From positions 930,809 to 994,808 of the forward strand of contig NZ_CM002299.1 of the NCBI RefSeq assembly GCF_000153125.2: 64,000 nt of DNA, in the 5' to 3' direction. Both the position numbers and the translations under genes were made by a program. This DNA is from Congregibacter litoralis KT71. Its GTDB lineage: Bacteria; Pseudomonadota; Gammaproteobacteria; Pseudomonadales; Halieaceae. Below, piece by piece: positions 43,279 through 49,216 of the stretch; position 1 is the first letter of the stretch; each line of letters opens with the position of its first letter. The notes beneath the pieces were generated by a model. That model did no database searches. It saw only the letters and a list, made by a program, of their open reading frames with translations, and was not told the DNA's origin.

Positions 43279-44601
43279 TCAAGCTGTTATTCTTTTTAGC
43301 GCTGAAACTAATTGTCTAAGGTCATTGGGTGTTGTAAAAACCTGGGGTGTGATCCTAACGCAGGCGCCGTCAGCCAAGCCATAGCGCGCCACTGAGAAAA
43401 TCCCGAAATCGGCCTCCAAGGTTTTTTGTAGTGCTTTGGCATCGTCGTCGCTATTTTTACCGAGCAATCGAAATGAGCCCATGCCCGTGCGAGATTCGGG
43501 ATCTGCGCCCCCCAGTACCTCGATGTGGCTTAAGGTTTCAGCCTCTTCTCTCCACAATTCATTCAGGTAACGAAGGCGCGCCGTTTTGTTAGCACCGCCC
43601 ACCGCGTTGTGAAATCCAAGGGCATCAGGCACGGCGATGATCGCCGCGAAATTGATGGTCCCGGGGTGAACTCGCGCGCCGACGGACTTGCTCGATAGAT
43701 CTCTCTCGCCTGGATGCACCTTGATTTTCTCTCTAGTACCACGGCGCATATAAAGCGCGCCTACTCCCAGGGGCGCGCCTATCCATTTGTGAAGATTGAA
43801 CGCTGCCCAGTCCACTCCCAAATCCGTGATGCGATAGTCCAGCAAGCCCCAGGACTGTGCATTGTCGCAAATCACATCTATGCCACGGAGGCGAGCTTCC
43901 GCAGTGATCTTGGCGACAGGGAGTACTAAGCCATGCTGATTGCTCACATGAGTGAGTAGCATCAGCTTGAGTTTAGGGTTCGCATCAAAAGCTTCGGTGT
44001 AGGCCGCCAATAGTTCAGCTTGCGTCGCTCTGCGAGGTAGGGCAAGTTCCACTGCTTTGACACCCCGACTCTGCTCAAGAGAGCGCATCAGCGTTTTGAA
44101 GCTAGGGTAGTCGACGTCAGCCAGCAGGACTGAGTCTCCTGTTTTTAGGGAATCGTATTGCAGGATCAGGCTCTGGATCGATTCCGTGGCATTTCGCGTA
44201 AGCACTATCTCGTCAGGCTCCGCTCCGAGTAATGCAGCGGCCTGTTCCACGGCGCGCCTGTAATCGGAAGAAAACTCCTTTCGCGCATAGAAGGAATTCT
44301 GCGTATTTACGCGTTCTAACGCCTGAAGATAGGAGGATTGTACGGGCCGAGGCATCTTTCCCCAGTAGCCGTGCTCCAGGTTAACAATGCCTTCCGTGCG
44401 GTCATAAAACGATGCCACTCTCTGCCAGTAAGATTCGTCGCGAGCGAGATCCTCGGCGGACGTCCCTGAAGGACTCTCGGGTAGGGAGTCGGATGCTGCT
44501 CCGAGTGCACCGTGACCCCACAGCATGGCGCCCGCGGCGGCAGTCCCCATGCCTGCCATAAGCCTGCGACGGCTCAGCTTGCCTACGTTTGTATTAATCA
44601 C
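43279..44601 (-). CDS. Tat-exported class V aminotransferase-fold PLP enzyme (isopenicillin N epimerase-like)
   Basis: A PLP enzyme of 440 aa of the class V fold, the group with isopenicillin N epimerase, cysteine lyases and kynureninase. The PLP lysine is K272 in NLHKWIGAPLG; the cofactor aspartate lies in VICDNAQSWG. The N-terminus has SRRRLMAGMG followed by an alanine-rich hydrophobic stretch, a twin-arginine signal. GTG 44601 is chosen because GGAGAG sits 5 nt ahead; GTG 44634 would lengthen the signal. It lies 73 bp after the oxidase gene, in the same operon. The reaction could be racemisation, lyase or transamination; sequence does not decide. Confidence 0.8.
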   Translation of the reverse strand: MINTNVGKLSRRRLMAGMGTAAAGAMLWGHGALGAASDSLPESPSGTSAEDLARDESYWQRVASFYDRTEGIVNLEHGYWGKMPRPVQSSYLQALERVNTQNSFYARKEFSSDYRRAVEQAAALLGAEPDEIVLTRNATESIQSLILQYDSLKTGDSVLLADVDYPSFKTLMRSLEQSRGVKAVELALPRRATQAELLAAYTEAFDANPKLKLMLLTHVSNQHGLVLPVAKITAEARLRGIDVICDNAQSWGLLDYRITDLGVDWAAFNLHKWIGAPLGVGALYMRRGTREKIKVHPGERDLSSKSVGARVHPGTINFAAIIAVPDALGFHNAVGGANKTARLRYLNELWREEAETLSHIEVLGGADPESRTGMGSFRLLGKNSDDDAKALQKTLEADFGIFSVARYGLADGACVRITPQVFTTPNDLRQLVSALKRITA

Positions 44602-44674
44602 TGCTGCTCTCCATGCCCGTTCCAATCGTTTCACGCGTGTTGCTATCTCACGCGTTCACCCCGGGGAGGGTGTA

Positions 44675-45844
44675 CTAGCTCAATCGCGCGGCCATCGCTG
44701 CGTGACCCTCGACCATACGCTGTACTTCGTCTTCTCTCGGGTTGAGGTCCCAGTCGTTTTTATCTACGGACCCGCCGAGGAGTATCCCGGTCTTTCTCGG
44801 GAATGTGTAGAGAAGTCCGTGCTCCCTGACGACTCCTGCATAGCCGTAGTCGATATCGTTCTGGGGGAGGAGGAAGCTGAGCTGGCCACGCGCGGGGATC
44901 AGGCTTTCGTCATCAAACAATCTGGCCGCACCAAGCCCGGTGCAGTTCACGATGCTGCGCTCGGCCAAGGCTTCGACATCATCTGCAGTTTCAAAAGCGA
45001 CTTCTCTGAGTTTTCCGCCTGCACCCGTAAAGTCACGCATCAGTGCTCGCAGGTATATGTCTGGGTCAATCATGAGCGTGTAGTAAGCGTCGTGGTAAGC
45101 AAAGCCGAAGGGGCCGTTCTTTTGATTACGTACCAGTCCCGGGTAAAGGCTGTCTCCACCGATGTAGGGGGTCGATGTGTCCATTGATGCCTCACTCAGC
45201 GAGTACTGTCGTATCCAGTAGACGCCATACGTAGGGTCGTTGGCATAGCCAATAAAGCGCCTAAAAGCGATCTGAGATGCCAAATCCAGCATTTGCAGAG
45301 TGGAGTGACTTACCTGCTCTCGCTCAAAAAGCGTTACCGGGTGCCACATTGCTCCAGCGACGTTGGATGTGGTGTACGGTGGGAAGTCTTTGGCGTAGAT
45401 CGTGACACCGGCGCCGGCCCTTTGAAGTTGAAGAGCGGTGGAAAGGCCAATAACACCTGAGCCCAGAACGGCAACATCTCTGCGCCCGAAATCTTTCACC
45501 AGTGCAGCAGCGAGCTCCGCTACTCCCCATGACAGAGATACGCCGCCCCCTCCATGGCCATAGTTATGTACAACATCTTTTGCCCCCAGTTTTACCGCCT
45601 GCAGTCTGGGTCCAGGCTTTCGAAACGGCCGTAGCCCAACAATGGTGCGCGTTACGCGGTCCAGGGAGGACTTCACGGGCATCATGCCTGCACTGATCGG
45701 TTGCACGAGGGCATCAGCAATCCCACCCGGAGGCTGCGCTGATAGCGCCTGACGAGACCTTAGTGAGGAGTTTGGTGATGCGGCACAGCCTGCAAGCGAG
45801 GTCGCGCCGAGCGCGGCTGCGGCTAAAAATTTTCTGCGATTCAT
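44675..45844 (-). CDS. Tat lipoprotein, circularly permuted D-amino-acid-oxidase-type flavoprotein
   Basis: A 389-aa FAD protein of the D-amino acid oxidase family. Residues 1-20 (MNRRKFLAAAALGATSLAGC) combine a twin-arginine motif with a lipobox ending in Cys20, so it is probably a membrane-attached lipoprotein exported folded. Residues 67-107, GLRPFRKPGPR and VVHNYGHGGGGVSLSWG, are what classical enzymes carry at their C-terminus. The FAD motif VLGSGVIGLS follows at 126-135, then TTSNVAGAMWHP, VNCTGLGA (299-306) and YTFPRKTGILLGG (346-358), and the protein stops where the moved segment would begin. R80 and Y346 correspond to the substrate-carboxylate Arg and Tyr. It is the first gene of the operon with the class V enzyme. 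Confidence 0.8.
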   Translation of the reverse strand: MNRRKFLAAAALGATSLAGCAASPNSSLRSRQALSAQPPGGIADALVQPISAGMMPVKSSLDRVTRTIVGLRPFRKPGPRLQAVKLGAKDVVHNYGHGGGGVSLSWGVAELAAALVKDFGRRDVAVLGSGVIGLSTALQLQRAGAGVTIYAKDFPPYTTSNVAGAMWHPVTLFEREQVSHSTLQMLDLASQIAFRRFIGYANDPTYGVYWIRQYSLSEASMDTSTPYIGGDSLYPGLVRNQKNGPFGFAYHDAYYTLMIDPDIYLRALMRDFTGAGGKLREVAFETADDVEALAERSIVNCTGLGAARLFDDESLIPARGQLSFLLPQNDIDYGYAGVVREHGLLYTFPRKTGILLGGSVDKNDWDLNPREDEVQRMVEGHAAMAARLS

Positions 45845-45982
45845 TGGCGTAGGCCTTTGCTTTCGGGGGACATATCAGACTTGATTAGCTGTCCATGCTT
45901 ATAAAAGTAACTCTGATTGAGGAGTTTGGTTCAAAGTTAGAAGAATAGCCACAACGCTTTTCGAGCTATCATAGAAGCACTG

Positions 45983-46002
45983 ATTCGGTGCGTGCACCGA
46001 AT
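45983..46002. promoter_or_regulatory. Perfect palindrome, possible operator
   Basis: ATTCGGTGC and GCACCGAAT are separated by GT. The site lies 139 bp upstream of the oxidase start, suited to a dimeric regulator. No regulator gene is present in the cluster, so the binder would be encoded elsewhere. Confidence 0.5.
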
Positions 46003-46333
46003 TTGAGCATGGGGGCAACGCGGTCATTCTTGAAGCAGGGCTCGCACTTGAGCGGTGCGTTTTCAGGAAAAAAATCTGAAAAATCCTGTTGCTGAGGTTG
46101 CCTCTGCCATTCCTCTGCGGCCCATATTTAGAAAGTCATGTCGTCAAATTCCGGGAATTTTGAGAGCCTCTTTGGTTCTTCTAGTTTGGAAAAAAAGCCG
46201 AGAAAACCTGTGCGAAAGTCATTTTACGCTTTCTAAGCAGCGCCATTCTTCGTTGGCGCAAATCTCCATGTGAAGCTGTTCACCGACTTCTAGTTGGTAC
46301 GTGTTTTGCTGTTCTCGATTCCAGTCGCCTAGT

Positions 46334-46356
46334 CGTGAGTTAGAGAACAACTCACG
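46334..46356. repeat. 8-bp-stem hairpin in the TonB receptor leader
   Basis: CGTGAGTT and AACTCACG flank AGAGAAC. A-runs rather than T-runs follow on the plus strand, so it is not a terminator for plus-strand transcription. It may be an operator or an RNA hairpin in the long leader of the receptor mRNA. Confidence 0.5.
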
Positions 46357-46537
46357 AAAAAAGTGCGTTTGCAATATTCGGCCAGGTTGCATCTCGAATC
46401 CAATATTGCGTCTTGGAGCTGAGCCGCCCGAGTGCGTGTTGCAGCTCAGGGTGGCGCGCGTGACCAGAAAACAGCGGTAGAACCAACATCAAGTTACCGG
46501 CGTTAGATCGGCCAGAAATGCTACACAGGAGAAAACC

Positions 46538-49216
46538 ATGCAACACAAACTGAAGCCATTGCCGTACGCGCTTGCGATCCTTTCCGCGGGCCTTTCCGCG
46601 ACATACCTCCCGGAAGCGCTTGCACAGGACCCCACCGCTTTAGAGGAAGTCGTAATTACAGGCCTTCGCGGTGAGCCCCGATCGGCCGTTGACTCTGCAG
46701 TGCCTATTGATACTTTTGGATTGGAGCAGATCGAAGCGGTTTCGCATACCGATACGGTCGATATTCTTCAAACACTGGTCCCATCTTTTAACGTGAGTCG
46801 GCAGCCCATTTCAGATGGAGCGTCTTTTATTCGACCGGTGCAGCTCCGGGGTCTTGATTCACACCACGCTCTCGTTCTTGTGAACGGTAAGCGACGTCAT
46901 CGAGCCTCGTTAGTGCAGATAGGTGGCTCAGGCACTCAGGGTCCGGATGTAGCGACAATTCCAGCCGCTGCGATTCAATCGATTGAGGTTCTTCGAGATG
47001 GTGCCAGTTCGCAGTATGGATCCGATGCCATCGCAGGCGTTATGAACTTTAACCTTAAAGAGAACAGTGAGGGTTTTGATCTCACCATCGACACCGGGGA
47101 ATATTTTGAGGGCGATGGTGCGGCTTATACCGTGCAGGGAAACATCGGTCTCCCGCTGGGAGATAAGGGTTTTCTTTCTATTTCAGCTGAGATAAATGAC
47201 TCGGAGTTTACGGAGCGATCAGAGCAATACTGTGAAAGTTGGTTCTGCCTTGATCAGGGTAATCCGCGATTCACAGAGCAAAGTGAGCTTCGACAGGGCT
47301 TTGTAAGTGGAACGCCAACTCCTGGCGCTTCTGCAAGAATTCAAGCTTTGCAATCGGCATTTCCCGGCGGTGTAGATGCGGCATCCGTGGAGGGCGAGAA
47401 CGCTATGCCCTGGGGTATTCCCAACAGAGAGCATCAAATGTTCTTCTTCAACGCGGGCTATGACCTGGACAACGGCATGGAGTTGTACGCATTTGGTAAT
47501 TACGGCTCCGTTCAAAGCGACGGAAGTTTCTTCTATCGCTATCCGGGCAACGGCACAATCGAGGATCTTCGTGAAGAAGATGGTTCTATTTACAACCCGC
47601 TGGATAAATTTGCCGGGGGATTTACGCCGAGATTTGAGGGTGAAGTCGAGGATGTCTCCCTTGCGGGAGGCCTCCGGGGTAACCTGAGTGATGCAACTAC
47701 ATTTGACCTTAGCGCGCGATTTGGGTCCAACGAGATTGACTACCGATTGTTTAACACGATTAACCCGTCCCTTGGTTCAGCTTCACCGACAGACTTTCGG
47801 CCTGGCACATTGACGAACGAAGAGTTCCAGCTTCAGCTCGATCTGGCTACTGAGTTTGATGTTGGCTTGGCTTCACCTTTGGTATTTGCGTACGGCGCAA
47901 GCTACCTTGATGAAACCTACGACGTAGGGGAGTCGAGTGACGAGGCTTCTTACATTGCCGGTCCTCATGCGGTTGCGGATCCTTATGGCCTTTGTAACGA
48001 CGATGGAACACCTACCGCTGCTGGCTTGGCGGCGACCAATGCTCCCGCCGACGAGGCGCTGAACTGTGCGGATCCTGATGACCCGGTATTCACCGTCGTT
48101 GGCGTTGGATCTAACGGGTTTCCCGGCTACTCACCTGCGTTTTCTGAGGAATACACTCGTGACTCCTACGCTTTCTATGGTGACCTTTCAGCTGACGTAA
48201 CAGATCAGCTACTGCTGCAGGGTGCATTGCGATATGAGGATTACTCTGACTTTGGAAGCGAGGTTGTGGGTAAGGTCGCAGCGCGTTATCGGATAAATGA
48301 TGCCTTTGCATTGCGTGGTTCCTTTGGCACCGGTTTTCGAGCGCCAACACCTGGTCAACAGGGAACAACAAACGTGTCTACGCGGCTGCCAAATGGTTTT
48401 CCGGTTGCGACAGGCCTGTTTCCTGCAGGCGGAACCGTGGCTCAGGCCTTGGGTGCACAAGAGCTTGCCCCAGAGACTTCAACAAGTTTTACCGTGGGGT
48501 TCACGCTGGAGTTAGAGAACCTGTCGCTGACTTTTGACGCTTATAGCATCGACATCGATGATCGCTTCCGCGCGATATCAACGCTGGATGTCAGCTCAGA
48601 TCCGAATGGTGACCCGGATGCTTACGAGCGCTTCCTGGCTCTCCAGGCAGCAGGTGTTGCCGGGGCAGAAAGCATTGGTGGCGTCAACTACTTCCAGAAC
48701 GCGATCAACACTGAGACCCGAGGGTTCGATATTGTCGCCAACTACCCGATGAGCTGGTCGAACGGGCAGTCGACGGACTTTTCCCTGGCTATGAACTACA
48801 ACGAGCAGGAGATTACCGACGATCCTCTTGACGTTCTCAATCCTGAGGGCGAGTTCGATCTTGAAAACCAGTTGCCGAACGTTAGATGGAATGCGACTGC
48901 GTTTCACAGTTTTGGGGATTTCTCGCTGATGGGGCGCGCGCGCTACTTTGGTGAGTGGGAAGATTCCGATAACACATCACCACTGTCGATCCAAACCTAT
49001 GACCCGGTTGTCTTCTTCGATCTCGAAGGCTCATGGCAGATTAATGCCAATCTGAGGGCTTCCATCGGTGGTCGTAACATCTTCGACGAATACCCGGATC
49101 AGGTCGATAGGGTCGCGAGTGACAACGACTACTGTTGCGGTCGTCTCTATCCGTCTACGAGCGTTGCTGATTGGCAAGGCGGCTACTACTACGCACGACT
49201 CCGTGTCGACTTCTGA
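46538..49216 (+). CDS. TonB-dependent outer membrane receptor
   Basis: An outer-membrane active-transport receptor of 892 aa. The Sec signal peptide ends near ALAQ (residue 30); a TonB-box-like LEEVVITG follows. The plug domain has VQLRGLDSHHALVLVNGKRRHRA and IQSIEVLRDGASSQYGSDAIAGVMNF (residues 105-175). The 22-strand barrel fills the rest and ends in YYYARLRVDF with terminal Phe. Cysteine pairs YCESWFC and DYCCG suggest loop disulfides. It is divergent from the oxidase operon and leads the TSUP-aminotransferase-DJ-1 genes. The substrate is not readable from sequence; context suggests an amino-acid- or peptide-like compound. Confidence 0.92.
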   Translation: MQHKLKPLPYALAILSAGLSATYLPEALAQDPTALEEVVITGLRGEPRSAVDSAVPIDTFGLEQIEAVSHTDTVDILQTLVPSFNVSRQPISDGASFIRPVQLRGLDSHHALVLVNGKRRHRASLVQIGGSGTQGPDVATIPAAAIQSIEVLRDGASSQYGSDAIAGVMNFNLKENSEGFDLTIDTGEYFEGDGAAYTVQGNIGLPLGDKGFLSISAEINDSEFTERSEQYCESWFCLDQGNPRFTEQSELRQGFVSGTPTPGASARIQALQSAFPGGVDAASVEGENAMPWGIPNREHQMFFFNAGYDLDNGMELYAFGNYGSVQSDGSFFYRYPGNGTIEDLREEDGSIYNPLDKFAGGFTPRFEGEVEDVSLAGGLRGNLSDATTFDLSARFGSNEIDYRLFNTINPSLGSASPTDFRPGTLTNEEFQLQLDLATEFDVGLASPLVFAYGASYLDETYDVGESSDEASYIAGPHAVADPYGLCNDDGTPTAAGLAATNAPADEALNCADPDDPVFTVVGVGSNGFPGYSPAFSEEYTRDSYAFYGDLSADVTDQLLLQGALRYEDYSDFGSEVVGKVAARYRINDAFALRGSFGTGFRAPTPGQQGTTNVSTRLPNGFPVATGLFPAGGTVAQALGAQELAPETSTSFTVGFTLELENLSLTFDAYSIDIDDRFRAISTLDVSSDPNGDPDAYERFLALQAAGVAGAESIGGVNYFQNAINTETRGFDIVANYPMSWSNGQSTDFSLAMNYNEQEITDDPLDVLNPEGEFDLENQLPNVRWNATAFHSFGDFSLMGRARYFGEWEDSDNTSPLSIQTYDPVVFFDLEGSWQINANLRASIGGRNIFDEYPDQVDRVASDNDYCCGRLYPSTSVADWQGGYYYARLRVDF

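Follow-up and report, generated by a model that had tools for sequence, protein, structure and literature searches.

A circularly permuted D-amino-acid oxidase-type flavoprotein with a predicted Tat lipoprotein signal in Congregibacter litoralis KT71

Introduction

D-amino-acid oxidase (DAAO, EC 1.4.3.3) is a textbook flavoenzyme, in whose classical order the FAD motif comes first and the NYGHGG segment last, and which is represented here by the human (2du8), Rasamsonia (7ct4) and bacterial enzymes. Close to it stand D-aspartate oxidase (DASPO; human 6rkf, Cryptococcus 9vpf) and, within the wider DAO fold family, ThiO. The protein described in this work is encoded in a 64,000-nucleotide stretch of the genome of Congregibacter litoralis KT71 (contig NZ_CM002299.1, positions 930,809 to 994,808), hereafter the window, by an open reading frame (ORF) of 389 amino acids with an ATG start on the minus strand (44675..45844). 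Once rotated, it is homologous to classical DAAOs over nearly the whole catalytic domain and has in common with them the GxGxxG fingerprint, an Arg-Pro pair, the GxRPxR and YGHGGxG elements and one substrate tyrosine, but it differs from them in its rotated order, in its position on a separate tree branch, in a predicted twin-arginine translocation (Tat) signal with a lipobox, and in lacking the human residues Y224 and Q53. The same rotation distinguishes it from DASPO, whose human representative 6rkf is its best-scoring solved relative by sequence, and within the DAO fold family it scores above the PF01266 cut-off (124.4 versus 27.9 bits) but below that of ThiO (58.2 versus 250.8). Altogether, the locus is best explained as encoding a circularly permuted, exported enzyme of the DAAO family that would oxidise D-amino acids, a reading to which we assign a probability of roughly 0.7.

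Circular permutation has reportedly been described, to go by the title of one paper, in a flavoprotein of another flavin-binding fold, not that of DAAO. A first-pass annotation of this DNA, made from the sequence, knew of no account of the present arrangement, and a search of the open-licence PubMed Central (PMC) literature, a scope outside which lie subscription journals and most preprints, likewise found no paper on a permuted DAAO; the word 'oxidase' was looked for and not found in four papers on circular permutation or non-sequential alignment (PMC12667903, PMC11757225, PMC2395249, PMC2213659). As far as this search went, a widespread and ancient permutation of the DAAO fold is thus new within the literature covered. 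It seems to have escaped notice, perhaps because profile searches file both halves as one ordinary family match and because the proteins carry generic names of the 'FAD-dependent oxidoreductase' kind.

Circular permutation of the DAAO fold

Read from the N-terminus, GLRPFRKPGPR (residues 70-80) and HNYGHGGGGVSLSWG (93-107) precede the FAD motif VLGSGVIGLS (126-135), coordinates that the first-pass annotation had given correctly, and 22 residues lie between LGGSVDKNDWDLN and the C-terminal end. A second NYGHGG in the native place, named in that annotation as a finding that would contradict a permutation, was looked for, and the protein has a single NYGHG motif, located ahead of the FAD motif. 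Since the sequence departs from the order with the FAD motif first and NYGHGG last, we file it as a permuted variant and not as a classical DAAO.

Membership of the DAAO family, as originally proposed, is well supported by the PF01266 score and by a phmmer search against PDB sequences, which returned 17 DAAO or DASPO matches, 16 of them as two stretches and with the swapped order visible in the three alignments printed. Against human DASPO (6rkf; whole-sequence E 3.9e-28 in native order), residues 123-377 correspond to chain positions 14-263 and residues 66-118 to positions 281-336 (domain E 1.2e-07), and the rotated protein (122-389 followed by 52-121) gives a single stretch, 3-335 on 15-336, with an E-value of 2.9e-29. 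PF01266 is also matched as two stretches, in comparison with one in a classical bacterial DAAO (P0125). When a profile of classical DAAOs was run on the C. litoralis genome, it recovered only the permuted gene and one short Rossmann-type match, the gene appearing as three pieces, of which the one matching profile positions 304-362 is 5' of those matching 7-96 and 146-286.

A rotation scan located the point of rearrangement. In it, a family profile (residues 52-389) of 99 sequences, namely those remaining of 120 listed homologues when N-terminally short ones were left out, was aligned by hhalign with 120 classical bacterial DAAOs at 24 cuts; the score was 262 in native order, rose to 408-410 at cuts 118-122 (409 at residue 120) and was lower elsewhere, so that the family profile cut at about residue 120 matches the classical bacterial enzymes end to end. 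In a comparison with plasmid records, limited among the matches listed to 60 of 62 and 40 of 57 records for the rotated and native queries, the DAAOs of Streptomyces, Streptantibioticus, Nocardia, Tsukamurella and Burkholderia glumae, present among the matches to both queries, gave one-piece alignments that span 97-99% of the rotated versus 62-69% of the native query. For the proteins of Rhizobium, Bradyrhizobium, Nonomuraea, Kozakia and Niveispirillum, a single alignment runs without a break from within the transposed segment (native query residue 49-70) to the core (334-389).

On the gene, all of it on the minus strand, the transposed segment (residues 66-118, 45491..45649) represents the C-terminal strands and helix of a classical DAAO. 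It is followed by a direct join between the former C-terminal helix and the first FAD strand (residues 119-123, 45476..45490), placed by motif spacing and by the rotation optimum, and by the FAD-binding beta-alpha-beta unit with VLGSGVIGLS (residues 123-151, 45392..45478). The final helix (residues 371-386, 44687..44734) stands beside the new chain end and equals the classical helix 287-299 just before the GxRP strand. In the proposed rearrangement, the classical C-terminal strands and helix (GxRPxR...HNYGHGG...WG) would have been shifted ahead of the FAD strand through a tight linker, leaving as the new chain end the helix that formerly preceded the moved segment. Between NYGHG and the FAD motif the distance hardly varies, being 33 residues in 115 of 118 exported-type proteins and 36-37 in 103 of 113 cytosolic ones, which points to a structurally tight join.

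The predicted secondary structure conforms to this arrangement. Residues 64-117 are modelled with high confidence as strand-strand-strand-helix, the pattern of the classical C-terminal segment, and the domain begins with four predicted secondary-structure elements that correspond to the last four of a classical DAAO; this stretch would presumably occupy the place that the C-terminal segment has in the classical fold. A failure of residues 67-107 to complete the DAAO fold, which the annotation had singled out as damaging to its proposal, was not seen at the level of secondary-structure pattern. A sequential structure comparison of the model covered residues 120-389, with human DASPO on top and tied with DAAO. 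A classical control model can be aligned over its full length with solved structures of glycine, sarcosine and related oxidases, so in the wider family the FAD-first order is the usual one and most simply the ancestral one.

Taking together the split PDB matches, the rotated query, the rotation scan, the pieces of the genome profile match and the order of secondary-structure elements, the permutation first suspected from the position of a few motifs is practically certain. An assembly artefact is ruled out by the permuted order of all 80 best-matching genome loci. A tandem-duplication intermediate was not found among the collected sequences, whose protein listings comprise 120 of 2580, 2436 and 3582 matches, so that one may exist. 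A natural two-subunit split was considered for a Mesorhizobium plasmid (L115, 2735..3798) annotated with two genes, and was rejected; this copy is read as a disrupted gene, since its first ORF stops within the FAD motif.

Distribution and origin of the permuted order

A protein search with the window enzyme as query yielded 2580 homologues at E <= 0.001 from 7998 scored candidates. Among the 120 nearest that were listed, NYGHG lies ahead of the FAD motif in 118, the other two being fragments without the segment. The converse search, from a classical Vibrio enzyme (120 of 2436 matches listed), gave 102 classical proteins by both motifs, 18 without one motif by pattern and none permuted; with 118 permuted proteins in one top-120 list and none in the other, the two groups are unmixed in either. 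Source databases call the homologues 'FAD-dependent oxidoreductase', 'D-amino-acid oxidase' or 'glycine/D-amino acid oxidase-like deaminating enzyme'.

At least 584 stretches of genome contigs encode relatives, permuted or not, and the best 80, in all of which the order is permuted, are no gauge of its frequency because they were chosen by similarity to a permuted query. Their titles name Pseudomonadota, Acidobacteriota, Gemmatimonadota, Bacteroidota and Verrucomicrobiota, together with single metagenome-assembled genomes (MAGs) of Zixibacteria and Dadabacteria, and a permuted member is also found in a record of an actinomycete, Nonomuraea. The occurrence is patchy: with the own genome counted, it extends to 2 of 140 genomes of the family of the window's organism (E <= 1e-40) and to at least 20 of 398 genomes drawn from its phylum (E <= 1e-15), the latter being a lower bound because at most 4 candidates were scored per genome. 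The permuted branch as seen here amounts to 233 proteins and 80 genome loci, which overlap, and its members probably number in the thousands.

A maximum-likelihood tree was calculated from 56 permuted rows, rotated and aligned with 31 classical ones. One branch separates the two groups with support of 100/100 and in 100% of 200 bootstrap trees, in an analysis whose bootstrap was not fully settled and in which one permuted row (L031) sits on a long branch. Separate trees of the FAD core (0.998) and of the transposed segment (0.859), for which 15 cytosolic rows were added and 7 classical rows whose segment start was not recognised were removed, keep the same split. A single branch between permuted and classical enzymes fits a single ancient permutation. 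The fuller account is somewhat favoured, though well short of settled: that one ancient permutation divided the DAAO family, and that the permuted branch, present in at least five phyla, has a cytosolic wing and a Tat-exported, mostly lipid-anchored wing carrying out periplasmic D-amino-acid oxidation.

If this is true, the permuted branch offers a natural test of how well the DAAO fold, with its FAD site, accepts new chain ends, and would supply DAAOs of a different build for biocatalysis and for the sensing of D-amino acids. Periplasmic D-amino-acid oxidation would then occur in many bacteria, some of which, including C. litoralis itself, have no classical DAAO, and there would be reason to look for it and for H2O2 in marine and soil bacteria. 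Moreover, alignments of bacterial DAAOs built on the classical order may miss this branch.

Export signal and the signal-less branch

The N-terminal sequence of the protein, MNRRKFLAAAALGATSLAGCAAS, can be read as a Tat signal and, after it, a lipobox. The twin-arginine motif, hydrophobic stretch and lipobox cysteine, recognised by eye and with a simple pattern, are all present in MNRRKFLAAAALGATSLAGC; the predicted signal and lipobox take up residues 1-20 (45785..45844, minus strand), with R3-R4-K-F-L ahead of LAGC and with C20 as the putative lipid-modified cysteine; R3 and R4 are invariant in the 99 aligned sequences. The description of the protein as a Tat lipoprotein, made in the first-pass annotation, thus stands at the level of sequence, and export by this route is predicted with good confidence. 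Among the 120 listed proteins of the exported type, simple patterns recognise a Tat-like signal in 109 and a lipobox in 76, 74 having both and 35 the Tat-like signal only.

A second permuted branch comprises the proteins of Rhizobium, Bradyrhizobium and Nonomuraea and 119 further listed ones (112 permuted by motif, 7 without a motif), from a search in which 120 of 3582 matches were listed. Its chains start a median of 25 residues ahead of GxRP (110 of 120 measured), and a Tat-like signal is recognised by simple pattern in 1 of 120. Provided that the root is on the classical side, this branch is the sister of the exported one. The annotation had further suggested that moving the C-terminal segment to the front might suit attachment of a lipid anchor, an idea that finds no support here: a permuted branch without signal peptide means that permutation does not need export, the 35 Tat-only proteins have no lipobox, and the tree gives no indication that the permutation arose for anchoring.

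Around members of the signal-less branch, two rhizobial plasmids (L111, 1363..5690; L112, 1491..5717) carry in a row a gene annotated as an FAD-binding oxidoreductase, of the berberine-bridge type in the Bradyrhizobium plasmid L111, the permuted DAAO and a thiamine-diphosphate enzyme. In Nonomuraea (L113), an enzyme that by eye looks similar lies 3' of the permuted gene.

Active site and predicted function

Substrate binding in human DAAO involves the carboxylate-binding R283 and the tyrosines Y224 and Y228. The first-pass annotation held that the key arginine and tyrosine positions are kept, which is correct in part: R72 (45629..45631, minus strand) equals human R283 and is arginine in every row, permuted (56 of 56) or classical (31 of 31), and Y346 (44807..44809, minus strand) equals Y228, the position being tyrosine in 43 and histidine in 8 of the 56 permuted rows and phenylalanine in 24 of the 31 classical ones, but Y224 is replaced by H342. 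Human R286 is kept as R75, and H307-G315 as H93-G101 in HNYGHGGGG (residues 93-101, 45542..45568, minus strand). The glycines of the FAD fingerprint, G128, G130 and G133, are invariant in the 99 aligned sequences. GxRPxR and YGHGGxG, here G70-L-R72-P73-F-R75 and Y95-G-H-G-G-G-G101, are named as elements of bacterial DAAOs in one study, according to which some glycine oxidases have them too and the substrate tyrosine is not conserved even among DAAOs (PMC9844085). Against the D-amino acid dehydrogenase model DadA (NF001933), the protein scores 24.3 bits with a cut-off of 383, a cut-off that nothing in the C. litoralis genome reaches and that one protein reaches in the 14 control genomes.

The protein is most likely a Tat-exported, lipid-anchored flavoenzyme that would oxidise D-amino acids in the periplasm, with substrate, oxygen use and processing predicted from sequence. 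FAD would be bound in the cytoplasm and the folded protein exported through Tat, to be anchored by a lipid at C20 facing the periplasm; D-amino acids would there be oxidised to imino acids and then to 2-oxo acid and ammonia, with electrons passing to O2 to give H2O2, as in classical DAAO. Amino-acid oxidation of some kind is probable, and the odds are about even that the enzyme is D-specific with O2 as acceptor.

A number of observations pull the other way. Human Y224 and Q53 correspond to H342 and H168, and with these two residues replaced and position 53 varying widely in the permuted branch, the range of substrates may not be the same. Model confidence is low at the active-site loop (161-170; mean pLDDT 61). 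No specific function is named by NCBIfam, whose best model, ThiO TIGR02352, is the one already mentioned, with a score far below its cut-off. The Tat pattern flags 14 of 120 classical DAAOs as well, which makes the Tat counts rough, and enzymatic activity is a prediction for all permuted members. Moreover, no conserved neighbourhood was found, either by ORF clustering or among 46 close same-strand neighbours of 80 loci (L001-L080), so that gene context neither supports the assignment nor names a substrate, and on a Kozakia baliensis plasmid (L114, 2908..4568) a divergent permuted flavoprotein, which has a Tat-like signal and lacks a lipobox, precedes a cytochrome c gene by 5 bp, a hint that in this case the electrons may go to something other than O2.

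Gene neighbourhood and alternative explanations

The Kozakia pair, a possible periplasmic dehydrogenase with its cytochrome, bears on the alternative that survives best, in which the same permuted fold would work as a dehydrogenase and deliver electrons from D-amino or related acids to cytochrome c in the periplasm or to a quinone in the membrane instead of O2. Lipid anchoring at the membrane side would suit such an enzyme; however, the Kozakia protein belongs, as a divergent member, to another sub-branch, a heuristic scan of the 3 kb around the gene found CxxCH ORFs with a signal in 6 of the 80 loci (193-2356 bp away), and no CxxCH ORF was found within 3 kb of the window's gene, so we regard this alternative as rather unlikely in comparison with the oxidase.

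The immediate neighbours suggest another role. At 43279..44634 (minus strand), after a 40-bp gap 3' of the DAAO gene, there is a class V aminotransferase (PF00266, 131.7 bits) with a GTG start and a Tat-like N-terminus, and the divergent neighbour at 46538..49216 (plus strand) is a TonB-dependent receptor (PF00593, PF07715). With the three genes adjoining (43279-49216) and the aminotransferase weakly like the periplasmic PvdN (72.7 bits versus a cut-off of 650; it also falls well under the SufS cut-off), the permuted enzyme could be imagined to tailor an amino-acid residue of an imported or exported, siderophore-like small molecule. Nevertheless, tblastn against all loci collected finds the aminotransferase next to a permuted gene in this locus only. 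Among other genomes that encode the permuted enzyme, 6 of 20 have a homologue, there on another contig or 0.8 Mb off, as do 2 of 23 genomes without a detected permuted enzyme (sets not matched by taxonomy), a patchy presence that comes to 9 of 44 genomes searched. The adjacency is not conserved and is treated as incidental, the aminotransferase is rejected as a partner, and the tailoring role appears improbable.

The last alternative, that nothing has been permuted and that an unrelated N-terminal domain mimics NYGHGG or a fusion has added a second copy, has a negligible chance in view of the 53-residue match of the segment to DASPO (domain E 1.2e-07), its absence from the native position and the end-to-end match of the rotated sequence, and a chance motif, a fusion or a duplicated segment is ruled out by the lack of any protein with two NYGHG motifs among 363 collected or of any such locus among 80. 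The circularly permuted, exported D-amino-acid-oxidising enzyme remains the preferred reading.

Minor observations

Some 140 bp upstream of the ATG of the DAAO gene, a perfect 9-bp inverted repeat, ATTCGGTGC-GT-GCACCGAAT (45983..46002), is possibly an operator. With up to 2 mismatches allowed, the genome has no other copy of it, so it points to no regulon. A possible phage link was also considered, and no PHROGs match was found.

In six of the genome loci, from proteobacterial MAGs (L014, L016, L018, L019, L022 and L024), the permuted gene is followed at a distance of 0.2-2.4 kb by an ORF some 460 codons long that has a signal-like start and contains CxxCH; the titles of the six CxxCH loci read Gammaproteobacteria or Pseudomonadales in five cases and Proteobacteria in one. 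Finally, an archaeal FAD-binding oxidoreductase on a Halostagnicola larsenii plasmid (L107, 1480..2658) aligns with 99% of the rotated query at 27% identity, is without NYGHG by pattern and may be a DAAO relative in classical order; another archaeal DAAO is reported in PMC9844085.
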